Below are positions 9,814 to 40,393 of a DNA stretch of 42,610 bases, piece after piece; within the stretch, counting starts at the first letter, position 1; the number at the start of each line of letters is the position of its first letter. The stretch spans positions 1-42,610 of the forward strand of contig JAAZOD010000016.1 of NCBI GenBank assembly GCA_012797975.1, in the 5' to 3' direction. A program made the position numbers and the translations under genes. Source of the DNA: Pelolinea sp. Its GTDB lineage: Bacteria > Chloroflexota > Anaerolineae > Anaerolineales > Anaerolineaceae. The notes beneath the pieces are model-generated. The model had not been told where the DNA came from. It worked only from the letters and a program-made list of their open reading frames with translations, and did not search any database.

Positions 9814-9821
9814 GATCCTGT

Positions 9822-9990
9822 AAATGTGTTCTGGTGTCCTCTCCCCGGATGGAAGGGCACAATGGCGAAACCGGTATCCAAAGTCCGGTGCTGTCCCGCA
9901 ACTGTATGGTTCGATGAACCAAGCCAGGTCGACCGCCAGAACGAAAAGAAAAATACACGCTCTCGAGGATAGGAGGTGACCATTGGTAAT
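9822..9990 (+). ncRNA. Cobalamin riboswitch
   Basis: Contains the hallmark segment CTGTCCCGCAACTGT at 9891-9905, preceded by CCGGT...GTCCGGTG pairing blocks and followed by AAGCCAGGTCGACCGCC (9920-9936), the conserved AdoCbl-type core. The outer helix pairs TTCTGG near 9829 with CCAGAA near 9936-9941. The boundaries are approximate. It lies between a good promoter and btuFCD, matching the known role of cobalamin riboswitches in switching off B12 uptake genes when B12 is plentiful. The region 9690-10062 holds no other gene. Confidence 0.93.
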
Positions 9991-29759: not shown

Positions 29760-30248
29760 ATGAAGTCGATCGATATTCGTGAAAAAACTTCGCAAGATAC
29801 CGACTGGGCAAAGACCCTCATGCTTGAAAGTTGGGGGAGTGAGGTAATGGTTCTGCAGGGCAGATTGTATCATCCGGCCGAACTACCGGGTTATATTGCA
29901 GAAATTGATCAGGAGCGCGTTGGCTTGATCACCTATCTCCTCGAACAGAGAAGCTGTGAGATTATCACCCTGAACAGTCTGCAGCCTGGATTGGGGATTG
30001 GAACTCGTTTGCTGGATGCTGTAAAGCGATCAGCCAAACAGAGTGGCTGCACGGAAATGAAGTTGTTCACCACCAACGACAATACCGACGCTCTGCGTTT
30101 TTATCAAAAGTATGGATTTCATCTGGATATGTTGCTCAAGGATGGCATTGCTCCTGACCGCGCCCTCAAACCGGAGATACCCATGAAAGCAGAGAACGGC
30201 ATTCCGATCAGAGATTATCTTCTGCTAAAGATAGGATTGGAATCATGA
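29760..30248 (+). CDS. GNAT family N-acetyltransferase
   Basis: 162 aa. The acetyl-CoA loop reads LQPGLGIGTRLLDAV (motif A) and the C-terminal part has NTDALRFYQKYGFHL (motif B). The substrate is unknown. It starts 6 bases after the HIT stop and overlaps the next gene by ATGA. Confidence 0.85.
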   Translation: MKSIDIREKTSQDTDWAKTLMLESWGSEVMVLQGRLYHPAELPGYIAEIDQERVGLITYLLEQRSCEIITLNSLQPGLGIGTRLLDAVKRSAKQSGCTEMKLFTTNDNTDALRFYQKYGFHLDMLLKDGIAPDRALKPEIPMKAENGIPIRDYLLLKIGLES

Positions 30249-31117
30249 AGATCACGCTCAAAATAGCCGCCTTCGCAGCCAGGATCTTGCCCGCCAGAAT
30301 GAAAGCACAACTCTACCAAAATCCGAAGCTTGCCAGCAGGATCAGATCCACACTGAACGCCGCCGCTCCGCTAGGTCTGACAAAAATAAAAATCGCCGGC
30401 GGGTTGAACCAGGGCCTCTTGTTGAATCTGGATATGCAAACAGAAAAGGATTACTGGCTCGGCACGTATGAACTTGCTCTCCAAGCGGCCATTGAAAAAT
30501 ATTGCCTGCCAGGAATGGTCGTTTATGATGTGGGTGCCAATATTGGCTATATCAGCATGATTTTCGCAAGGCAGATTGGAAAAGCAGGCAAGGTGCTTGC
30601 TTTCGAACCACTGCCGGATAATTTCAAGCGTCTGACCGATAACATAGCGCTCAACGATCTCCCAGCGCAGATCGCTTGTTTTCAAGCAGCCGTTATCGAT
30701 GGGCCTGGCAGCACCACTTTTTTCGTGCACAAATCCGGCGCCATGGGAAAAGCACAGGGTTCCCTGGGACGCGATGAAAAGTACACTTCGCAGATCAACG
30801 TGCCGGCAATCGCCCTGGATGATTTCATTTTCAAACAAAACCATCCGCGCCCCGATCTGATCAAGATGGATATTGAAGGTGGCGAGGTGCTGGCAATTCA
30901 GGGGATGGAAAAAACCTTACATGACATCCAGCCGACTATGCTCGTTGAAATCCACAGTCATGCCGCCCTGGATTGCTTATGGAAAGAATTCAAGACATAC
31001 GGATACCGTTTGTTCAAAATGGAAAAGGGATATCCGCAGATCATTGATCCGGCTGCCTTGGGAGAGCGAACCTATGCAGTGGCTGTTCCTGATAAAAAAA
31101 CCGGTTCTCATGCATGA
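30245..31117 (+). CDS. FkbM family SAM-dependent methyltransferase
   Basis: 290 aa. The SAM site is YDVGANIGYISM at 94-105, with the acidic AFEPLPDNF loop after it. The FkbM signature DLIKMDIEGGEVLAIQGM and MLVEIH follow. FkbM-type enzymes usually O-methylate sugars or secondary metabolites; the acceptor here is unknown. The coding sequence ends inside the arms of the downstream terminator: the TGA is 31115-31117. It is coupled to the GNAT gene by a 4-base overlap. Confidence 0.87.
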   Translation: MKITLKIAAFAARILPARMKAQLYQNPKLASRIRSTLNAAAPLGLTKIKIAGGLNQGLLLNLDMQTEKDYWLGTYELALQAAIEKYCLPGMVVYDVGANIGYISMIFARQIGKAGKVLAFEPLPDNFKRLTDNIALNDLPAQIACFQAAVIDGPGSTTFFVHKSGAMGKAQGSLGRDEKYTSQINVPAIALDDFIFKQNHPRPDLIKMDIEGGEVLAIQGMEKTLHDIQPTMLVEIHSHAALDCLWKEFKTYGYRLFKMEKGYPQIIDPAALGERTYAVAVPDKKTGSHA

Positions 31118-31129
31118 GAACCGGTTTTT
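31096..31129. terminator. Bidirectional terminator overlapping the end of the FkbM gene
   Basis: Perfect palindrome: AAAAACCGGTTCTCA, TGCA loop, and the complement ending TTTTT. It contains the last codons and stop of the FkbM gene and also faces the PspC gene ending at 31148. Confidence 0.92.
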
Positions 31130-31147
31130 ACATCTTTTCGATTAGTC

Positions 31148-31342
31148 TTATGGCTCTTCAGGCACGACCAGCATCATCACAATGTAAACCCAAAAGGTCA
31201 GTGTTCCCAAGAAAAGCCCGAGAGCAAACAATAATCGGACGATGGTAGGATCTACTTCAATATATTCACCCAATCCCCCGCAGACTCCGGCTATCATCCG
31301 CTTATCCCGCGATCGGTATAATTTGCGACTATCATCAGCCAT
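31148..31342 (-). CDS. PspC domain membrane protein
   Basis: 64 aa. PspC domain: KLYRSRDKRMIAGVCGGLGEY then VDPTIVRLLFAL and one long hydrophobic segment ending VVPEEP. PspC proteins are linked to membrane-stress responses. I chose the ATG at 31342 because GAGGAG lies about 8 bases upstream; an open frame reaching 31489 would overlap the HD-GYP gene end. It closely resembles the product of 38345-38569. Confidence 0.88.
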   Translation of the reverse strand: MADDSRKLYRSRDKRMIAGVCGGLGEYIEVDPTIVRLLFALGLFLGTLTFWVYIVMMLVVPEEP

Positions 31343-31406
31343 GGCTGTTCTCCTCGTTTCAATGTATTTCTCTAGGTATACGCTTCTGGCGAAAAAAGGT
31401 TGCTGA

Positions 31407-33947
31407 TTATTTTCTCGATTTCTTCGATTTTCTTGTTTTCTGTTCTTCTTCCAGCATGGCAATAAAAACCTCAACCACATGGGGATCAAAATGGGTGCCG
31501 GATTGTTCTTTAATATACCCGATTACTTTTTCCTGCGGCCATGCCTTGCGATAAGGCCTATCCGATGAAAGAGCATCCCACACATCCACAATGGCGAATA
31601 TCCTGGCAGACAAAGGGATTTCCTCACCTTTCAGCCCTTGGGGGTACCCGCTGCCATCCCATTTCTCATGATGGCAGTATGGTATCTCCAAAGCCGGTTC
31701 AAGAAAATGAATGGAGGAGAGCATTTCGTATGCAATGCTGGGATGTCTGCGCATGGTCTCCCATTCTTCATCGGTAAGAGGACCTGGTTTTTGCAAAATG
31801 CTATCAGGGATGGCAATCTTCCCTATATCGTGCAATAAAGACCCACGGCGGATATGTACCAGCTCATCTTCACTCACGCCCATCTTCTCGGCCAGGTGCA
31901 AGGTCATTCCCAAAACACGCTGGCTGTGCCCCTCTGTTTCCCGATCGCGCATTTCCAGTGTGCGCGCCCACCCCTCCAACGTCGCTTCATACGCACTCAC
32001 CAATTCCATATTGGTCTTTTCGAGATCGGTGAACATACGTGCATTATCGATGGCAATAGCAGTTTCGGATATCAAGGTGTTGAGATAATCAAGCCACTGT
32101 TGATCTGGTTCAAGGACCGAACGATGAAAAATTTCCAACACGCCTTTGATTTGATTCCGTGCAATCAGCGGGAAACCATAATAAGAAACAAAACTCTCAT
32201 CTTCCAGTAATGGCGATTGCTTCAGCGTTGTCAGTTCGGAAGCAAGGTTTTTTACATAGATTGGCTCCCGTTTTTGGGCAGCCATCCCCGCCATACCCTG
32301 CCCCATTCGCAAACTGGTATATTTCAATGCATCGGTTCTAAATCCTCGACCGGCAATAAAATTCAAGTTCTTGTTTTCCGGGCTGTAAAGCAGCACATCT
32401 GCCGCATCCACTTTCAGTTCATTCACAACCTGATCCAACAACATGACCAGAGGGATCTGCAGATCAAAATTTTCTGTGATCGCAATATTGATGTTTTGTA
32501 GAGCTGAAAGTCGTTTTAGCTGGAGCTGCAAGTTCTTCTCGGCCTTGCGCCGTTCCATCAGTTCCTTTTGTGCCAATGAATAGAGTTTTGCATTTTGAAT
32601 GGCCAAGGAAGTTTGGCTTGCCAGGGTGGTAAGAATGTTGAGATCTTCTTGGGAATAGGGCGTCTCAGACATTTTTTCGCCCAGAACCAGGATTCCAATC
32701 AGGTCCTTCTTTGTTTTCAACGGTATGAATAATTCTGCGCGTAAATCGATCAGGTAATCCAGTTCATCTTTCCACAGCGATTTGATCATGGGAGATGATT
32801 CCAACTCGCTCCACATCACAGGGTCGTCAGCTCGTTTCATTCTCAATACTAAAGGATGATCGATACGGAATTCTTTATGTTTGGAATAGTTCAGCCCATT
32901 ACCAGAAACAAGAACAAAGGACGCATTTTCTTTTTCCTTTTGCGAAACAAAAAGACCGGCGCGTTTGATATGCATGGTGGAGATGATCTCGGTGATGATT
33001 GAACTGGCCAGGCGTTGCAGGTCAATTTCGCGCGATGCGGTTTGAACAATTCGCTGCAGCATAAGGTTCGAGTCGTATCGCTCACGGAAGAAGATTTTAT
33101 TGATCCAATCCTGCAAAATTTTTTGGACTGGCTGAAACACAAGAGCGGCTGCAATCGCAACAAACACAGAAACCAGAACCTGTTGATTGATAGAAAACTG
33201 AAAAGCACGTACCGTGCTGCTGATGACGAGAAAGTACAGGGTCCCGATGATGCTGGTAGGCAAAACATACAGGACGCTTTTTCGGAGGATGACATTGATA
33301 TCCAGAAGTTGATGGCGCAGGATGGCCACTGAAATAAGGATGGCGGTGATGAGATTCGCAAAAATATCGATGGGATACTGCCCCAGATTGGTAAAGTTGA
33401 AGATGGATCCGATGATGATGAAAATGAACCCCAAGATCAGATATTTCAAGCGGTTGCGAATTTGGGGGCTTCTTGCCTTATGGTAACCCTTGAACAAGCG
33501 ATAGGTATTGTAGAGCATCAATGCATATCCGGGGCCGGCCACAAAACCCACCAGGGGAGTGAATGCGTAAACCAATTCTGTCCCATTCATATAGGCGTAG
33601 GAAACGACCCAATTTGTGCACAGGGTCATCAAAATAGCCAGAACGATATATACATAGATCCAACGATCCCAGCTTGTTTTCTGCGGTAAACTGGCCTGCA
33701 CAAATCGATGGCTGCCGATCAAGGTCAAAATAGATGAAACGGTCATCATGCGGAACCAAAAATAGATATCCCCCAGTTGGCCAACGACCATGATGGCGCT
33801 AAGTTTCCAAAGCGCCATCATTAATAAATAAAAACGAAAAGCATCTTTCTCTCTGGTCTTTGGTTTCGTGAACAGCACAACCAAATAAAGCGCCAGATAG
33901 CTGATGAAAGCAAGAACGGTAACGATAAGTTCCAAATTCCAGATCAT
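31407..33947 (-). CDS. 7TM-GAF-GAF-HD-GYP phosphodiesterase
   Basis: 846 aa. The N-terminal 250 residues form about seven to eight membrane helices like the sensor modules of some histidine kinases. Two GAF-like regions follow (about 310-460 and 490-640) separated by a short coiled coil. The C-terminus is an HD-GYP domain: H674 in EGHSQRV, H706/D707 in LLHDIGKI, then HHEKWDGSGYPQGLKGEEIPL (about 759-779) and DVWDALSSDRPYR. The GYP signature and metal ligands are intact, so degradation of cyclic di-GMP (or a related dinucleotide) is expected. No clear ribosome-binding site is seen. The start lies 9 bases after the GH3 stop, so it is probably in the methyltransferase-GH3 operon. Confidence 0.9.
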   Translation of the reverse strand: MIWNLELIVTVLAFISYLALYLVVLFTKPKTREKDAFRFYLLMMALWKLSAIMVVGQLGDIYFWFRMMTVSSILTLIGSHRFVQASLPQKTSWDRWIYVYIVLAILMTLCTNWVVSYAYMNGTELVYAFTPLVGFVAGPGYALMLYNTYRLFKGYHKARSPQIRNRLKYLILGFIFIIIGSIFNFTNLGQYPIDIFANLITAILISVAILRHQLLDINVILRKSVLYVLPTSIIGTLYFLVISSTVRAFQFSINQQVLVSVFVAIAAALVFQPVQKILQDWINKIFFRERYDSNLMLQRIVQTASREIDLQRLASSIITEIISTMHIKRAGLFVSQKEKENASFVLVSGNGLNYSKHKEFRIDHPLVLRMKRADDPVMWSELESSPMIKSLWKDELDYLIDLRAELFIPLKTKKDLIGILVLGEKMSETPYSQEDLNILTTLASQTSLAIQNAKLYSLAQKELMERRKAEKNLQLQLKRLSALQNINIAITENFDLQIPLVMLLDQVVNELKVDAADVLLYSPENKNLNFIAGRGFRTDALKYTSLRMGQGMAGMAAQKREPIYVKNLASELTTLKQSPLLEDESFVSYYGFPLIARNQIKGVLEIFHRSVLEPDQQWLDYLNTLISETAIAIDNARMFTDLEKTNMELVSAYEATLEGWARTLEMRDRETEGHSQRVLGMTLHLAEKMGVSEDELVHIRRGSLLHDIGKIAIPDSILQKPGPLTDEEWETMRRHPSIAYEMLSSIHFLEPALEIPYCHHEKWDGSGYPQGLKGEEIPLSARIFAIVDVWDALSSDRPYRKAWPQEKVIGYIKEQSGTHFDPHVVEVFIAMLEEEQKTRKSKKSRK

Positions 33948-33956
33948 AAAAGTATT

Positions 33957-35552
33957 CTATTTATTTCCAAATAGTCTTTCAATTATATTGTCTCTTGGCT
34001 GCATGTGTGGTGGTTTCAAGTGAGCTAAATCTGCTCCTGCTTTGCGCTGCATATCAATGTAATTATTGAAAGCGCCTTCGGGAAGAAGGGTGACCTGTAA
34101 AATATCCTCCCCTGAAATTTTCAGGGTGTCCGAAAATTCTTCATTCAGTTCTGCCATACTTTCCTTGATCTTCAATGCTGCAGCATTGGCAGAGAGTTCG
34201 ATGCCCGGTTTCATTTCGATGTAAAGATGTAAAAGGGAGTCGGCATTGACAACTTCTTTTCGGGCAGTCCAATCTACATATTCAATTCCAGCTTTTTCGA
34301 TCCCCATCCAAATATCGGTCTCTGTCAATTTCACCATGGTACCCAGATCGATCAGATCGTCAGCTCTGGAATAGAACTTGAATTGCGGCAATTTCACTCC
34401 GATCTCTTTATCTTCCAATGCAATGAAATTGATCAAATCGCTAACACGGTAGCGCATCAAGGCTCCCCCCAATAAATTCGTAAAGACGATTTCATAGATT
34501 CCCGGTTTCACCTCATCGAACAACACCGTTTTCGGCTTGTAAGTCGGATCAGCTTTATTCTTCATATATTCATCATAGGGTATGAACTCATAGAAATCGC
34601 AATCAGGGAACAGCGTCATGCCTTTGAAATTCCAGGCCTGCATGGCGATCATCCCACCTTCCGTGCAGGCGTACCCTTCCAGTGGTTTTCTTCCCCAATA
34701 GTATTCAAGGCGTTCACGATAGATTTCGGTATCCATCCCGCCGGTCATGATCCCTTTTAATTTCCAGATGTCCTTTGGAAGCAGCGGCCGTTTTTGGATT
34801 TTCGCTTTTAGATACCCGATCAGCAGCCGTCGAATGGTTCTGGGTTTGAGCATTTCTTTCGATATCTTTACGCCTCCCGAGCCGCTGGCAAAACGCTCCC
34901 CCATCTTTCCCAGGATCATAGCCAGACCAAAGAAAATGTCCAGTCCGGTATCCATTGCCATGAGAAAACCTTTGTTCACTCGTTCGCCGTATTCCATTTT
35001 TTCGGCTTCATCCAAGGGGGGAACAAAACGCACATCCGCATTTTCATAGGTCGTATAGCTGATATAACCGGAAGTGTAAGGTCGCGGGGCAGTGGCCAGC
35101 AGCACCACATCGCCAGATTCAAGCGGTACATCCCCTTTTTCGCTGCAAGATGCCTGGATCATGGCGCTGATCACCACTTCCGCCATCTTGTCGTAGATCC
35201 TTTGGGAATAAGGGATCCATTTGCAGGGATATTTCCCCGATTTTCCCGACGTGCGGGCCCACATGTACTTCTCCCTGGGAAGGTTTTTCTCATCTTTTTC
35301 CATTAAGAAGGGAACATAATCATCATAAGTGGTTAGTGGAACAATTTTCCGGAAATCATCCATGGATTCGATTTTATGGTCGCCAAGAAAGTGCTTCCCC
35401 AATTTACTTTCTCGAAGAAATGCAACCTGTTCCATTAATAATCGGTTTTGAATCTCCATGAATTCTTTCATGGTGAGATCCAAATATCCGCAATATTTTT
35501 CCCAGATAAGATCTTGTCTACCCTGTTGTAGTAATTCTTTGTACGTTGTCAT
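33957..35552 (-). CDS. GH3-family acyl-adenylating enzyme
   Basis: 531 aa. GH3 proteins belong to the ANL adenylating superfamily; plant members join amino acids to jasmonate or auxin, while bacterial members are mostly uncharacterised. Motif 1 is TSGKSGKYPCKWIPYS (about 101-116), motif 2 ACTEGG and motif 3 RYRVSDLINF, all in the right order. FDEVKPGIYEIVFTNLLGG and FYSRADDLIDLG are typical GH3 text. ATP-dependent activation of a carboxylic acid followed by conjugation is inferred; substrate unknown. AGGAGA six bases upstream decides for the ATG at 35552 over a TTG at 35558. The gene follows the methyltransferase after two bases. Confidence 0.87.
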   Translation of the reverse strand: MTTYKELLQQGRQDLIWEKYCGYLDLTMKEFMEIQNRLLMEQVAFLRESKLGKHFLGDHKIESMDDFRKIVPLTTYDDYVPFLMEKDEKNLPREKYMWARTSGKSGKYPCKWIPYSQRIYDKMAEVVISAMIQASCSEKGDVPLESGDVVLLATAPRPYTSGYISYTTYENADVRFVPPLDEAEKMEYGERVNKGFLMAMDTGLDIFFGLAMILGKMGERFASGSGGVKISKEMLKPRTIRRLLIGYLKAKIQKRPLLPKDIWKLKGIMTGGMDTEIYRERLEYYWGRKPLEGYACTEGGMIAMQAWNFKGMTLFPDCDFYEFIPYDEYMKNKADPTYKPKTVLFDEVKPGIYEIVFTNLLGGALMRYRVSDLINFIALEDKEIGVKLPQFKFYSRADDLIDLGTMVKLTETDIWMGIEKAGIEYVDWTARKEVVNADSLLHLYIEMKPGIELSANAAALKIKESMAELNEEFSDTLKISGEDILQVTLLPEGAFNNYIDMQRKAGADLAHLKPPHMQPRDNIIERLFGNK

Positions 35553-35554
35553 AC

Positions 35555-36289
35555 TCAATCTCCTTTTCTTTTGGCCTGGATAAGGATTGGATCAGGAATC
35601 CAGGGGCGGCGTGATTGTAATTTTTGAATTTTTATTTCCGAAAAACCGGCTTCTTCCAGCTCTTCCTCCCATTTCTCCGCAGTACGTATATTGGGCAGTG
35701 CCTCCGCCTCAGCCCATGCGCGGGAACTGTTTTCTCGAAACAAAAAGTATAAAAATGCCAAGACACGGATAATGGAACGCACAAGGGGATTCATCCAGGT
35801 TTTCGATGCACCCACATCCACAACCATCACCTGCCCATTGAAATCAGTCACACGGAACATTTCACAAAGCAGTTTTTTCACATCCATGTGATGAGTTGCC
35901 AGAGCGCAGGTGATCAGATCAAAACTGCTGGAACGAAAAGGGATTTCAAGCGCGGAAGCACACAGCATTTCAATGGGAGATCCTTTTCCCAGGGATTTTT
36001 TCCCAAGTTCAAGCATTCGGTAAGTGATATCCAACCCAACCATCTGTTTCACCAGTGGGTTGGCCGAGAGGATTGCCCTCGGGATCATCATTTTTCCGGT
36101 TGCCAGGTCAAGGATCCTTTTCTCCTGAACATCGTTACAGTTCGCAAGCAATGTGTCGAGCAGTTCGGCATAACTCCAACCCCAAAAGAGATTCAATTCT
36201 GAATCCATTTTCTTTTCATATTCAGGAGCAAGGTCGGTAAAAGCATCAATGACATGTTGCTGCTCTTTTACAGGAACATCGTCTGTCAT
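35555..36289 (-). CDS. Class I SAM-dependent methyltransferase (UbiE-like)
   Basis: 244 aa Rossmann-fold methyltransferase. Motif I is ILDLATGKMMIPRAIL (about 59-74), where the usual DxGxG is DLATG. Motif II acidic region reads VGLDITYRML. Motif post-II FDLITCALATHHM and HM are typical of the UbiE/Coq5 group. A hydrophobic stretch (VRSIIRVLAFLYFLF) near residues 168-185 could touch the membrane. The substrate is unknown; being first in an operon with a GH3 enzyme suggests a small-molecule or lipid acid. The ATG follows a TATAAC box by eight bases. Confidence 0.85.
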   Translation of the reverse strand: MTDDVPVKEQQHVIDAFTDLAPEYEKKMDSELNLFWGWSYAELLDTLLANCNDVQEKRILDLATGKMMIPRAILSANPLVKQMVGLDITYRMLELGKKSLGKGSPIEMLCASALEIPFRSSSFDLITCALATHHMDVKKLLCEMFRVTDFNGQVMVVDVGASKTWMNPLVRSIIRVLAFLYFLFRENSSRAWAEAEALPNIRTAEKWEEELEEAGFSEIKIQKLQSRRPWIPDPILIQAKRKGD

Positions 36290-36297
36290 AGCACCTA

Positions 36298-36325
36298 GTT
36301 ATATATTGTTCTCAAAAAAAATCAA
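36298..36325 (-). promoter_or_regulatory. Predicted promoter of the methyltransferase-GH3-HD-GYP operon
   Basis: On minus: TTGATT (36325-36320), 16 bases, TATAAC (36303-36298), then 8 bases to the ATG, giving almost no leader. Confidence 0.5.
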
Positions 36326-36589
36326 TTGGGAAATTGAACAATGCCATACTTCTATGGCAACAGCCCGCCGAACAAAACCTACTTTTAGTATACCAGAATA
36401 TGAAATCGCACCGCACCCTGATTTCTTGGTATAAATTCGAGAGTAATATAACACATTTCAACAGGGAGGAAGACAGTATCGACCCGTGTTTTCATCATCC
36501 CTTTTACCCCATTGACATTTTTATGAAAGAGGTATAAGAATAACAATACTGAGGAAAAATAGTTCGCTGGTTCCTGTTTTAAATGCTTC
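36326..36589. other. Divergent intergenic region
   Basis: AT-rich spacer between the methyltransferase operon and the diguanylate cyclase gene (about 300 bases in total including the flanking promoter). Apart from the two predicted promoters I see only short chance open frames and no RNA gene. Confidence 0.5.
36512..36538 (+). promoter_or_regulatory. Possible promoter of the diguanylate cyclase gene
   Basis: TTGACA (36512-36517), a short 15-base spacer, and TATAAG (36533-36538), about 50 bases before the ATG at 36590. Confidence 0.4.
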
Positions 36590-38254
36590 ATGAAAAGACA
36601 AAATAAAGACGCCGCCAAGCGCATTTACTCAACAAGAAATGCTATATTCGGTTATTTGATAGGGTTGATATTCCCTGTCTTGGCATATCTGTCTGAATTC
36701 CTAAAAACAAAGGGCGGTTTCTCACTGAATACGTTTCAGCAATTCCATCTTGAAAACCCGTTGTTTTGGCTTGTCGATTTCATCCCGGTTTTTGTTTTTT
36801 GCATCATCTACTTCACCCCGCAGGAAGAGCACGGTAATTGGATGACTTCGCTTTTTAAGAAGATCGACCACTCAAACAGTTATGAAATCTTCAAACAGAA
36901 AACTTTTTATGAATCCCTGGTAAACAACAGTCCGGCAGCCATTGTCACCATGGATGCTGACCAAAAAATCATTTCAGTCAACCCTGCTTTTACGAAAATG
37001 TTCCAATATACACAAGAAGAAGTCCATTTAAAGGATCTCGATGTAACCATTGCGGCCGATTGCGACCTTTGCCAGGCGCAGGAATTTACACAGACCGTCC
37101 TTCAGGGCGGAAATATTCATGGGTCGGGAAAAAGACGCCGCAAAGATGGCACGTTGATCGATGTGGAAATTTACGGCGTCCCAATCTTTCTGGAAGGAAA
37201 ACGCGTCGGTGTTCTAGGGATGTACATTGACATTACCGACCGCATCCGGTCGGAGGAAATCATCAAAGAAAGCGAACTGCGTTATCGCAGTTTGTTCCAT
37301 GATTCTCCAATTTCCATGTGGGAAATGGATTTTTCTCTGGTAAAGGAATGGATCGATGCGCTTGAATTCAATAAGGAGGACGAACTTCGTCTATTTTTGG
37401 AAAAAATGTCGCATTTTGAAAGAGAATTTTCATCGTTGATCCGGATCATAGACGTCAATCAAGCGACCTTGCTGTTATACAAAGCCCATGACTTAGAGGA
37501 TTTACGCAAGAATATAGACGGGATTTTTATTGAGCAATCCATCGGGCCGATGCAATCTACTTTGTTAGCGTTATTCAACGGATCCCATCAGATTGAAACA
37601 GAAATTCCCCAACGGACCCTTGATGGCATGATTCTTCATACCATCATGCGGCTGTCGCTGGTGAACGGATTTGAAAAGGATTGGTCCCGAGTCCATTTAT
37701 CGGTTTTGGATATCACAGAGCGCAAATGGGCCGAGGAAAGAATGCGATTTTTAACCATGCATGATTCCATGACCGGTCTCTATAACCGCGCTTATTTTGA
37801 AACGGAATTGAAGAGGATTTCACGAGGCCGCCAGTTCCCGCTCAGCGTGATCGTCTGCGATCTGGATAATTTGAAAACCACCAACGACCAATATGGGCAT
37901 ACTGCGGGAGATGCCATCATCTGCAAAACTGCATCCATCCTTCTGGAAAGTTTTCGAGCGGATGATATTGTGGCAAGGTTGGGAGGTGACGAATTTGCAG
38001 TGATCATCCCCAATCTGGAAGAAGACCGGGTGTTCAAGATCGTGGAACGGTTGCAGAAAAACCTGGAACAGTACAACCGCACATTGCTTGTTGGTGATAG
38101 CACCCATCGGGTAAATCTCTCCATCGGTTCTGCCACCACGCAAAACGAAGCAGAGGTGGCGGAACTTTTTAAACTGGCAGATCAACGTATGTATCGCGAA
38201 AAACTTAAAAAACGCGCTTCCTCCTCAAAAGGGAGTACCTTCAATAAAAACTGA
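36590..38254 (+). CDS. PAS-domain diguanylate cyclase (GGDEF)
   Basis: 554 aa. Two membrane helices (about 18-38 and 57-76) are followed by a PAS domain (about 103-220: NNSPAAIVTMDADQKIISVN ... DITDR), a second PAS-like region (about 228-375) and a C-terminal GGDEF domain. The active site GGDEF is intact at 465-469. The inhibitory I-site RADD lies at 456-459, exactly five residues before it, so product inhibition is expected. No EAL domain. It makes cyclic di-GMP. It is divergent from the operon encoding the HD-GYP phosphodiesterase. The start lacks a strong ribosome-binding site. Its TGA is inside the downstream hairpin. Confidence 0.92.
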   Translation: MKRQNKDAAKRIYSTRNAIFGYLIGLIFPVLAYLSEFLKTKGGFSLNTFQQFHLENPLFWLVDFIPVFVFCIIYFTPQEEHGNWMTSLFKKIDHSNSYEIFKQKTFYESLVNNSPAAIVTMDADQKIISVNPAFTKMFQYTQEEVHLKDLDVTIAADCDLCQAQEFTQTVLQGGNIHGSGKRRRKDGTLIDVEIYGVPIFLEGKRVGVLGMYIDITDRIRSEEIIKESELRYRSLFHDSPISMWEMDFSLVKEWIDALEFNKEDELRLFLEKMSHFEREFSSLIRIIDVNQATLLLYKAHDLEDLRKNIDGIFIEQSIGPMQSTLLALFNGSHQIETEIPQRTLDGMILHTIMRLSLVNGFEKDWSRVHLSVLDITERKWAEERMRFLTMHDSMTGLYNRAYFETELKRISRGRQFPLSVIVCDLDNLKTTNDQYGHTAGDAIICKTASILLESFRADDIVARLGGDEFAVIIPNLEEDRVFKIVERLQKNLEQYNRTLLVGDSTHRVNLSIGSATTQNEAEVAELFKLADQRMYREKLKKRASSSKGSTFNKN

Positions 38255-38283
38255 CACGGAGAAAAATTCGTTCTCCGTGTCAG
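38246..38283. terminator. Terminator between the GGDEF and PspC genes
   Basis: 13-base perfect stem CTGACACGGAGAA / TTCTCCGTGTCAG with a 7-base loop. The T run is good on the minus strand (TTTTTATT), weak on plus, so it mainly ends the PspC transcript. It contains the GGDEF stop codon (38252-38254). Confidence 0.8.
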
Positions 38284-38344
38284 CCATCAATTTCTTTGCA
38301 AAATTTTTCGTTCCAATAACTCCAACTATTGGAGAAAATAGCGG

Positions 38345-38569
38345 CTATTTCTCCTTGCCCTGTACATCAATGGTTTCCTCGCTGATCAATGGTTCTTCCG
38401 GTGTGATGATCCATAAGATGATATAAACCAGCACCCCTCCCAACCCGGCAAAGACCAGGATGAGGAAAATGATCCGTACGATGGTCGGATCGACCCCAAA
38501 GTAATCACCCAATCCGGCACACACACCTGCTAGTATTTTTTCATTTCGCTTCCGATAAAGTCTTTTCAT
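38345..38569 (-). CDS. PspC domain membrane protein (second copy)
   Basis: 74 aa. RLYRKRNEKILAGVCAGLGDY, then VDPTIVRIIFLILVF and a membrane segment ending ITPEEP, plus an acidic/lysine tail of 14 residues absent from the copy at 31148. AGGAG lies before the ATG. It converges on the diguanylate cyclase gene. The two copies align without gaps through most of their length and are probably paralogues. Confidence 0.9.
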   Translation of the reverse strand: MKRLYRKRNEKILAGVCAGLGDYFGVDPTIVRIIFLILVFAGLGGVLVYIILWIITPEEPLISEETIDVQGKEK

Positions 38570-38675
38570 TTTTACTCCTGTTACCTATATTACGAAATTA
38601 ATCCACCCGGGTTGCATGAATGTCCTGCATTGTATTTCTTATGGGATCTCCATGGATCAGGTTTTCGCCTTCTGG

Positions 38676-39674
38676 CTATTCTTGCTGTGTCCAAGCGGGA
38701 TAAAAATCCTCTCCGGAGGAAGTGGTCATTTGAAAGATCGCTTTGGTATCCAGATCCATGATATAGATGTCACGATTCCCCTGATAGTTAGATGCAAAGA
38801 TCAGATACTGGCCATCCGCGCTCCATTTGGGCATTTCGGTGGATGCTTCGAAATTGGTAGTTTGTTCAAGATCATCCGCCTCGAGATCATAGATATAGAT
38901 TTCCTCAAACCCGCTGCGAGTGGAAATGAATGCGATTTGTTTCCCATCCGGTGACCAGGCAGGTTGAGCATCTTCGGCGGTATTTTCTGTAACTCGCTTG
39001 ATATCGAGCCCGTCTTTGGTCATGATGTACAGTTCATTGTTCACATCACGATCCGTTTGATAAACGATTTGCTCCCCATCCGGCGACCAGGCCGGAAAAC
39101 CATCGCTGAAAGAATTGTTGGTAAGCTGGATAACATTCCTGCCATTTAAATCCATGAGGAATATTTCATCATCGCCATCCCGATTGGAGACAAAGGCAAT
39201 CGTTTTTCCATCCGGTGAGACGGCGGGCAATACATCGTCACCCGCATCGTTCGTCAGCCGTTTTATCCCACTCCCATTGGCATTCATGATGTAGATCTCG
39301 GGATTTCCATCCCGGTCCGACACAAAGACGATCTGGTTTCCATCACTGGTCCAGGTCGGAAAGACATCCACATTTTCATTGGAAGTCACTTTCGAAAGGG
39401 TTGCGCTCTGGAAATCATAAACATAAATATCCAGGTTCCCATTGCGATCGGATTGAAAAGTCACTTTTCCCTTCAGATCGACCGGATTCAGTGCTGCCAC
39501 AGCGATCGGCGTGGAAGTGGCCGGGATCAAAGGGAGTGTTGGCCATATTGTAGCAGTCGGGGTGGTTGTCGCTTCGGATTCTGCGGTTGCGGCATTTCCC
39601 TTTTTTTGAAAGAAGGTCTGGCAACCACCAAGCAATACAAGCAATACCATTAAAACAATGATTTTTCTTTTCAT
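38676..39674 (-). CDS. TolB-like beta-propeller lipoprotein
   Basis: 332 aa. Lipobox LGGC with the cysteine at residue 18, then a Thr/Pro linker (TTTPTATIWPTLPLIPATSTP is its core, about 36-56). The rest is six PD40/WD40-like repeats of about 42 residues, each with a SDRxGNxxIYxMD strand and a PAWSPDGxQI turn. This predicts a six-bladed propeller like the C-terminal half of TolB. No Pal or TolA genes are nearby, and the protein lacks the TolB N-terminal domain, so it is not TolB itself. The ATG overlaps the stop of the upstream lipoprotein gene (ATGA), so the two are coupled. Confidence 0.87.
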   Translation of the reverse strand: MKRKIIVLMVLLVLLGGCQTFFQKKGNAATAESEATTTPTATIWPTLPLIPATSTPIAVAALNPVDLKGKVTFQSDRNGNLDIYVYDFQSATLSKVTSNENVDVFPTWTSDGNQIVFVSDRDGNPEIYIMNANGSGIKRLTNDAGDDVLPAVSPDGKTIAFVSNRDGDDEIFLMDLNGRNVIQLTNNSFSDGFPAWSPDGEQIVYQTDRDVNNELYIMTKDGLDIKRVTENTAEDAQPAWSPDGKQIAFISTRSGFEEIYIYDLEADDLEQTTNFEASTEMPKWSADGQYLIFASNYQGNRDIYIMDLDTKAIFQMTTSSGEDFYPAWTQQE

Positions 39675-40393
39675 TCTTGATTTTCCTGATTCATCGTCTG
39701 CGTCACATCGATCAGATAGAAATTATCAAACAGAACATGCACTCCCACGTCTTCAAAGCTGCCGGCGATCATGCCCACATCACCAGTGCTGAAAGTTTTG
39801 TCTTGCTGCACATCCAGCAAATTGCCATTGACATATAAAAAAAGAAATTCTTTATAACAGTTGAACACGATCTGGTTCCTTTCGCCATCCTTCGCAATAG
39901 AGTCGGATTGGAGCATGGTGTCGTGTCCAAGGACCGTGTACTCGCCATTCTGTATTTTGAAAATCCCGTAATAACCATCACTGCTGATCAGGCCTGCATA
40001 GAAATTCTTTTCATCCTGATAGCGGCAGATCAGGCCGTAATCATTATCATAGGTGCCTTCCACGTATTGGGCATCCACCTGCAGTCCGATATCAGCATAC
40101 GTGCGATAGAGTGTTGAAAAATAATCAGTGTTCTTTTCATTGACCAGGATGTGATAGCTTCCATCCATATAATCCGTTCCCCCGAGATCGGTCTCTGTCT
40201 GATCCCAACCGGAAGTATTGGAACTGAAATCATCATAGAAGATCGTACCGGCCGGCAGCGTGCTTTGGGCCTTTTCCTGAGCAAACCAAGCTGTTCCAAA
40301 GGGAAGAATGTTGCATGCAGAAAAAAACAGCAGAACAACCATATTGATCAAAACACACGCCTTATTGAACGACGAGTGATTCTTCTTCATCAT
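39671..40393 (-). CDS. Lipoprotein with a concanavalin A-like domain (paralogue)
   Basis: 240 aa. The signal peptide ends FFSAC (C27). The mature part starts after a short linker with GTIFYDDFSSNTSGWDQ, then YADIGLQVDAQYV, DYGLICRYQDEKNFYAGLIS with SDGYYGIFK, DVGMIAGSF and VLFDNFYL. The order of motifs matches the product of 22849-23598, especially CR...WY/FYxxxIS and DGYY. A sugar- or surface-binding role is possible; no enzymatic residues are evident. The ATG at 40393 sits six bases after a TATAAT, so the mRNA is probably leaderless. It is coupled to the TolB-like gene. Confidence 0.73.
   Translation of the reverse strand: MMKKNHSSFNKACVLINMVVLLFFSACNILPFGTAWFAQEKAQSTLPAGTIFYDDFSSNTSGWDQTETDLGGTDYMDGSYHILVNEKNTDYFSTLYRTYADIGLQVDAQYVEGTYDNDYGLICRYQDEKNFYAGLISSDGYYGIFKIQNGEYTVLGHDTMLQSDSIAKDGERNQIVFNCYKEFLFLYVNGNLLDVQQDKTFSTGDVGMIAGSFEDVGVHVLFDNFYLIDVTQTMNQENQE

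Follow-up and report, generated by a model that had tools for sequence, protein, structure and literature searches.

The stretch of DNA analysed here, referred to as the window, is a contig of 42,610 bases from Pelolinea sp. (Chloroflexota; Anaerolineaceae) and is part of a draft genome of 2.57 Mb in 35 contigs. On its minus strand it carries a cassette of three adjoining genes, for a methyltransferase, a GH3-type acyl amide synthetase and a membrane receptor with an HD-GYP output domain. These three genes were found to form a conserved core which is smaller and far older than the system first proposed for this locus. The HD-GYP gene encodes a membrane receptor, and it is the membrane module of this receptor that tracks GH3. 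We propose, with about an even chance of being right, that the cassette encodes a synthase for a methylated lipid signal of the N-acyl type and the cognate receptor of this signal, which would control cyclic di-GMP. The core features are located as follows:

35555-36289, minus strand: class I S-adenosylmethionine (SAM) methyltransferase of the UbiE/Methyltransf_11 type, first gene of the cassette (Pfam Ubie_methyltran/Methyltransf_11)
33957-35552, minus strand: GH3-type acyl amide synthetase (ANL adenylating enzyme), from an ATG start; an alternative TTG start at 35558 is possible
31407-33947, minus strand: HD-GYP receptor, 846 aa (Pfam GAF_2, GAF and HD_5, the last with 140 bits)
33033-33947, minus strand: receptor residues 1-305, which form the membrane module and represent the window in the profiles A5 and A6 described below

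All Pfam families named for window genes (for PspC1, HD_5, GAF_2, GAF, GH3, GH3_M, methyltransferase, GGDEF and PAS) were matched above their cut-offs.

In order to follow the core across genomes, 64 GH3 loci were read: besides the window, 25 came from a scan of named genomes, 26 from 400 genomes drawn from the phylum, and 12 more from Bacillota. Nearly all belonged to Chloroflexota and Bacillota. The pairing of a putative synthase gene with a receptor gene, as looked for in quorum-sensing systems, was present at 64/64 loci, with the receptor module no more than 2.9 kb from GH3 in 63 and 5.1 kb away in L096. One locus titled Paludibacter (L041) was placed among Anaerolineae rows of the GH3 tree, so a binning error is probable in that case. 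Of 61 related genomes, 11 gave a GH3 match, including the congener G004, in which only a 47-residue remnant was found. The order methyltransferase-GH3-receptor was observed in all ten others, one of which (G033) has the locus split over two contigs with the GH3 and receptor frames broken. When the remaining neighbours were compared with the window flanks by BLAST, no match was obtained outside the genus and G033. As the order is kept in many genomes whose other neighbours do not match those of the window, it is beyond chance. The preliminary description of the locus had envisaged a small acid derivative made by GH3 and tied to cyclic di-GMP, and had predicted a conserved neighbourhood of GH3, methyltransferase and HD-GYP genes. 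Both ideas gained support, as GH3, a methyltransferase and an HD-GYP (or GGDEF) protein adjoin far beyond the genus, and a consistent occurrence of GH3 without these neighbours was not found. In G004 (L019:8548-12047) the methyltransferase is lost and the receptor, PspC1, GGDEF and PspC2 genes are retained; an open receptor frame without GH3 and methyltransferase fits a receiver without a synthase, in this one draft genome.

The linkage of GH3 and receptor is solid. GH3-linked rows were used to build a membrane-module profile (A5; 20 rows, 305 positions), which was then applied to 40 genomes. The 30 genomes with GH3 (including the G004 remnant) had one locus each, near GH3, with 236-375 bits; among the ten without GH3, G024 scored 193 bits and the others at most 69 bits or no match at an E value of 1e-10. 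In the phylum draw, a strong GH3 match (E 1e-59 or better) was present in 27 genomes, six weak hits (19-30 bits) not being counted, and a module score of at least 215 bits was obtained in the same 27. Tandem copies aside, the next module scores were 194 (G337), 193 (G024) and 137 bits (G240), followed by 100 bits or less. A leave-out profile (A6), made from six Anaerolineaceae rows only, was run on 27 genomes to counter the circularity of A5, and the GH3-linked protein was its best match in 25/25 distant GH3 genomes (72-172 bits), the best score elsewhere in these being 59 bits.

Among 398 Bacillota genomes, A5 found the module in 16 (E 1e-25 or better), 11 of which have a strong GH3, in every case beside the receptor. 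The converse search detected a strong GH3 in 13 of the 398 genomes, with the receptor beside it in 13/13. At the two loci added in this way, a PEMT-type methyltransferase, GH3 and the receptor lie in a row, and the receptor scored 83-85 bits with a local profile. One of the 13 genomes (G451, with the order receptor-methyltransferase-GH3) is represented in the profile; in the 12 that are out of sample the two genes were adjacent in 12/12. A PEMT-type methyltransferase lies beside GH3 in 12 of the 13, and the locus in G740 is cut by the contig. Since the G474 locus is on a contig of 2.88 Mb, binning errors do not explain the Bacillota loci. Three Bacillota genomes have distant GH3 genes (76-82 bits) with no receptor near them, so the link is a specific property of this GH3 subfamily. 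The distant genes (L154-L156) lie beside an MFS (major facilitator superfamily) transporter, scanned in L154 and L155, and next to a MarR-type regulator, the latter identified by scanning in L155 and matched by genes of similar size at the other loci. The pairwise identities of GH3 and module are correlated (r 0.90, and 0.72 for pairs below 50 percent); this was not used as evidence, because common ancestry alone would produce it.

The GH3 protein of the window matched PF03321 with 40.7 bits and GH3_M (PF23571) with 41.4 bits (cut-offs 23.6), and those of L092, L048 and L142 were also above the Pfam GH3 cut-offs. Three nucleotide-binding motifs are present (TSGKSG...KW, CTEGG and RYRVSD), the third with S at a position where most rows carry G, and T101, G103, T297, E298 and R367-Y368-R369 are invariant across 17 diverse GH3 rows. 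The AlphaFold2 (AF2) model (pLDDT 88) had the BT_0428 ligase and plant GH3s as its top PDB matches, and sequence-profile matches among solved structures were to plant GH3s only. From the motifs, the model and these matches, it is likely that the protein adenylates an acid and forms an amide. The nearest named record is from Anaerolineaceae bacterium UBA4781 (87 percent identity). An identity with the ornithine-specific GH3 enzyme OlsH was ruled out by score, as the OlsH model NF052613 gave 32.7 bits against a cut-off of 620; the same model had no match in L092, L048 or L142.

A methyltransferase adjoins GH3 in 52/64 loci, 27 of them class I and 25 of the PEMT/ICMT type by profiles of our own. 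The PEMT/ICMT type is only weakly supported by Pfam: of 11 proteins scanned, three had PEMT above cut-off, one had DUF1295 and one had Steroid_dh, with the remaining proteins scoring just below the cut-offs. At the 12 loci without an intact methyltransferase beside GH3, the gene is missing at a contig edge in three (L032, L106 and L146; the partner contig of L032 carries it), in pieces in two (half a PEMT in frame with GH3 in L098, fragments on the opposite strand in L107) and absent in seven. In L105-L107 a class I methyltransferase lies past the receptor, on the opposite strand. At L098:8583-10520 (minus strand), one reading frame contains the latter half of a PEMT-type methyltransferase together with GH3, by fusion or sequence error; it was not counted as a PEMT-GH3 fusion, the in-frame PEMT being only half and the rest unrecognisable. 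Database matches of the methyltransferase are generic, and the solved structures matched by its profile include enzymes of O-, C- and N-methylation alike, which gives no firm indication of its substrate. The L092 enzyme (PEMT type) matched isoprenylcysteine carboxyl methyltransferase weakly (20 bits, cut-off 160). Judged by sequence, carboxyl O-methylation and N-methylation by the cassette enzyme would both fit and are indistinguishable.

The HD-GYP protein comprises an N-terminal multi-pass membrane domain, two GAF domains and HD-GYP; the membrane and GAF domains had been missed earlier. In its AF2 model (mean pLDDT 79, pTM 0.52), seven helices are predicted up to residue 211 and two further ones to residue 290, after which a GAF domain follows:

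Residues 2-26, 32-55, 61-86, 94-110 and 133-157: predicted membrane helices 1-5
Residues 161-185, 189-211, 223-252 and 256-290: predicted membrane helices 6-9

Hydropathy of the N-terminus was in partial agreement with these helices. The family HisKA_7TM (PF16927) was above cut-off in 12 of the 22 receptors scanned with an N-terminus; the window protein is not among the 12, and three of them are not GH3-linked. The homology of the membrane module across rows was established by alignment. The predicted helices, together with the 12/22 receptors matching HisKA_7TM, make the window protein receptor-like, with an HD-GYP output whose motifs are intact (HDIGK and HHEKWDGSGYP). The 50 best Foldseek matches listed were all GAF-bearing proteins, so no solved relative was found for the membrane part.

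The output of the receptor is exchangeable around a constant GH3 and membrane module. At the 57 loci of the GH3 tree the outputs were GGDEF-HD-GYP (25), HD-GYP (22), histidine kinase (4), histidine kinase-receiver (2) and GGDEF only (1), with three cut off. Six output changes and one change of methyltransferase fold are required on this tree, which is a quick tree with SH-aLRT support only, rows lacking a methyltransferase being left out of the fold-change count. It omits L032, L106, L107, L145 and L146, whose GH3 is broken, truncated or matched as fragments of less than 400 residues, and the late-added L152-L153; L109-L112 were dropped as repeats of counted loci. The GG(D/E)EF pattern was not matched in four Bacillota receptors (L141-L144). 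In the receptors of L087, L088, L090 and L096 (about 1,110 residues), the membrane module is duplicated, the additional copy being the weaker one and lying ahead of the first.

Eight related receptors without GH3 were also read (L108, L113, L114 and L147-L151). A FabF-like ketoacyl synthase, scoring best with FabF models, adjoins five of these (L147-L150 in Bacillota, L114 in Chloroflexota), and three of the five loci have a class I methyltransferase (L148 and L150 by Pfam, L149 by BLAST). The ketosynthase-linked rows form one group on the module tree, and these five loci are a candidate parallel system. More sensor or output genes lie near the four Bacillota ketosynthase loci. In G024, a GH3-less member of Chloroflexota, a receptor with GGDEF output overlaps an N-acyltransferase gene (L108:8883-12945; NAT_N and GNAT_C, PF18082 and PF18164). 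A module that senses acyl-derived products made by adjacent enzymes would be expected to have such ketosynthase and N-acyltransferase neighbours.

In the mechanism that we propose, GH3 would use ATP to activate an acid, fatty or other, and would join it to an amine, and the methyltransferase would methylate the resulting N-acyl-type product. The methylated product would reach the membrane or the medium and bind the membrane module of the adjoining receptor, which would then alter cyclic di-GMP through HD-GYP in the window and act through another output in relatives. The proposal builds on the observed gene order, the co-occurrence of GH3 and module, the exchange of outputs and methyltransferase folds, and the adenylation and HD-GYP motifs of the window; the substrate, product, ligand identity, export and density dependence of the signal are those that we infer.

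Synthase-receptor pairs are known from other bacteria. In Xanthomonas, the RpfF-RpfC-RpfG system of the diffusible signal factor links a fatty signal to an HD-GYP output; RpfF is a crotonase-type synthase, and the Rpf receptor and HD-GYP are separate proteins, whereas the window has receptor and HD-GYP in one polypeptide. The photopyrone receptor is of the LuxR type. The photopyrone ketosynthase PpyS, described in the consulted part of the source as an acyl-condensing enzyme which makes the signal (PMC4578411), is a parallel to the sister receptors linked to FabF-like ketosynthases. In Ralstonia, methyl 3-hydroxymyristate is produced by the methyltransferase PhcB and sensed by the kinase PhcS, both encoded in one operon (PMC8578825, in the part consulted), and the likeness lies in a methyltransferase and a sensor sharing an operon and a lipid signal. 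The same part of the source names no GH3, and there PhcS is a histidine kinase with a response running to PhcA, not directly to cyclic di-GMP. A methyltransferase with a sensor kinase was not found in the window, where the receptor has HD-GYP and no kinase domain; a methyltransferase and a kinase-output receptor occur together in the relatives L082, L085, L089, L097 and L102. The GH3 enzyme, the receptor family and their combination are absent from the matches listed in the open-licence literature, among which there was no GH3-receptor pair, and no paper on Chloroflexi, quorum sensing and HD-GYP was found there.

By analogy with PhcB-PhcS, a signal synthase with its receptor is favoured over an aminolipid pathway with its own sensor, the main rival, which we regard as unlikely. 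In such a pathway an N-acyl amino acid made by GH3 would be N-methylated to a trimethylornithine-like membrane lipid, and the receptor would monitor the membrane. Class I and PEMT folds are both known among phospholipid N-methyltransferases. The window methyltransferase has a hydrophobic segment (residues 166-184, by hydropathy) in a stretch conserved across the family alignment, and the best NCBIfam match of the class I enzyme of L097 was PmtA, a weak match (57.5 bits, cut-off 390); both points are consistent with the aminolipid pathway. A precedent is provided by Singulisphaera acidiphila, in which, according to the part of the source consulted, one operon encodes OlsH (GH3), OlsG (an N-methyltransferase) and OlsI and leads to trimethylornithine lipid (PMC12493201), thus sharing with the window a GH3-type gene beside a methyltransferase gene. 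A word search of the main text of that paper gave no Chloroflex-, quorum, histidine kinase or c-di-GMP. The GH3 proteins examined here differ from OlsH by the scores given above, and a membrane receptor accompanies GH3 here. No OlsI alpha/beta hydrolase was present among the nine Pfam-scanned genes around the window (29760-40393, PspC2 not scanned; elsewhere chosen neighbours only were scanned, and the remaining genome was not searched). A lipid pathway alone also does not predict exchanged outputs, nor a receptor beside a ketosynthase or an N-acyltransferase.

That the receptor senses an unrelated cue and merely regulates the expression or activity of both enzymes is improbable. A fixed neighbourhood alone would result from such regulation as well, but the membrane module is common across loci while the outputs differ, and the messenger on which HD-GYP and GGDEF outputs act is global, not confined to a single operon. 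Less probable again is a role of GH3 in removing the ligand, by conjugating and inactivating an acid, fatty or otherwise, that is sensed by the receptor, as plant GH3 does with auxin. Plant GH3s (JAR1, GH3.5, GH3.12) are among the nearest solved relatives and are alike in fold and adenylation motifs, with 14-19 percent identity in structure alignments, and they act on plant hormones, which they conjugate according to the part of the source consulted (PMC12493201). The co-conservation of the methyltransferase with GH3, and receptors beside a ketosynthase or an N-acyltransferase, suit biosynthesis better. Chance or passive clustering with no functional link has almost no probability: only the PspC and PAS-GGDEF flanks, which look local, would agree with it, and against it stand the receptor at 64/64 loci, most with other flanks, and the distant GH3 genes without a receptor, which make the link subfamily-specific.

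Several observations weigh against the signal synthase and receptor that we favour. No conserved exporter was seen among the neighbours that were scanned, and the receptor could monitor a membrane lipid and not a released signal. The score gap obtained with A5 is partly circular, because the profile was made from GH3-linked rows. With A6, the GH3-less G337 (87 bits) and G240 (82 bits) were matched too, at the level of the two weakest GH3-linked proteins, of which that of G232 (83 bits) falls between them and that of G444 (72 bits) below both; the module therefore exists without GH3 too, yet no second copy was found elsewhere in GH3 genomes. GH3-linked modules are not one clade, and three label changes are needed on the module tree. 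Eight genomes of group g96 have a divergently oriented receptor separated from GH3 by 2.8-5.1 kb, and seven loci have no methyltransferase beside GH3 despite a continuing contig (L083, L099, L100, L101, L103, L104 and L105). Among the GH3-less receptors, no acyl enzyme was recognised at L113 (G337) or at L151 (G578), the neighbours of the latter not being Pfam-scanned, and the G817 locus (L147) has a ketosynthase with no recognised methyltransferase. The canonical HD(I/V)GK and HHE..GYP motifs are both present in only 43 of the 51 receptors with HD-GYP output; SHE replaces HHE in six, and L107 and L145 deviate otherwise.

Around the core, the window carries the following features:

31096-31129: palindrome of 15 pairs between an FkbM gene and the end of PspC1, a possible end of the unit
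31148-31342, minus strand: PspC1, 64 aa counted from ATG (PF04024, 86 bits), a terminal add-on outside the conserved core
36290-36589: divergent intergenic region of 300 bases, the presumed promoter region
36590-38254, plus strand: PAS-GGDEF diguanylate cyclase (GGDEF 139 bits, with PAS), divergent from the cassette, a genus-level neighbour
38345-38569, minus strand: PspC2, a genus-level neighbour, assigned by reading and BLAST kinship to congener counterparts, not by Pfam

The gaps of 64, 9 and 2 bases between the minus-strand PspC, HD-GYP, GH3 and methyltransferase genes agree with the coordinates, as do the divergent PAS-GGDEF gene and the second PspC gene converging on it. It is plausible that the four minus-strand genes are on a single transcript. 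Two minus-strand terminator-like hits, of 5 and 6 pairs, were found inside the four genes. The palindrome was given a terminator score on the plus strand only, so its role for the minus strand is a guess. One sigma-70-like site lies in the intergenic region (plus strand, 36512-36541), and across 36290-36589 such sites were in no excess over shuffled sequence.

By BLAST, PspC1 was confined to the genus except for a single genome from a different one, G033, which also shares further parts of the PspC1-side flank of the window. The PAS-GGDEF and PspC2 genes are present in three of four congeners (G001, G002 and G004), the contig of the fourth stopping short of them, and in none of the six other genomes of the family examined by BLAST. 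The PspC and PAS-GGDEF genes were rejected as components of the system on account of this local distribution. Of the earlier reading of the locus, the acid product of GH3 linked to cyclic di-GMP was supported. A PspC-mediated connection with membrane state was not, nor was the bracketing by two opposing cyclic di-GMP enzymes. By its sequence PspC1 is a short PspC-domain protein and not a canonical PspC, as it scored 57.2 bits with the NCBIfam equivalog TIGR02978 (cut-off 104). By eye, the PAS-GGDEF protein has an RLGGDEF motif with RxxD five residues upstream, which we take to be the I-site. Beside PspC2, two genes (38676-40393, minus strand) are conserved in the genus: one has PD40 propeller repeats, and the other, lacking a Pfam match, has a lipoprotein-like N-terminus by eye. 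A cobalamin riboswitch (9815-9954, plus strand; RF00174, 55 bits) was the sole Rfam match in the window at the gathering threshold. In L092 (7164-7883), L099, L100, L104 and L105, GH3 or PEMT-GH3 is preceded by two genes, one of the winged-helix type (in L092 HTH_45 by Pfam, similar by reading in the other four) and one small, with about 103-144 codons; these upstream genes may regulate the cassette.

More broadly, and as a tentative reading that is more doubtful than the proposal for the cassette itself, the loci could represent a new class of chemical communication, in which methylated N-acyl signals made by GH3 would be perceived by receptors of seven plus two helices with interchangeable cyclic di-GMP or kinase outputs. 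As members of the receptor family are partnered by ketosynthases or an N-acyltransferase at other loci, the family would then be a general receptor platform for acyl-derived signals. This class would span Anaerolineae, Dehalococcoidia and Bacillota. Matches to reductive dehalogenases (19-50 per genome in each of the seven f31 genomes tested) suggest that the f31 genomes are Dehalococcoides and Dehalogenimonas, and the other small genomes presumably belong to Dehalococcoidia. The Chloroflexota of anaerobic sludge and sediment thereby gain a candidate signal system with a specific receptor, none being among the matches listed in the open-licence literature, and judging from the dehalogenase matches it would extend to organohalide respirers. 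For bacterial GH3 enzymes, a second testable role is added to the one lipid pathway described in the consulted part of the source (PMC12493201), and a receptor family is identified whose ligand can be sought directly. Experimental confirmation would make this a new kind of chemical communication among bacteria, present in many anaerobes.

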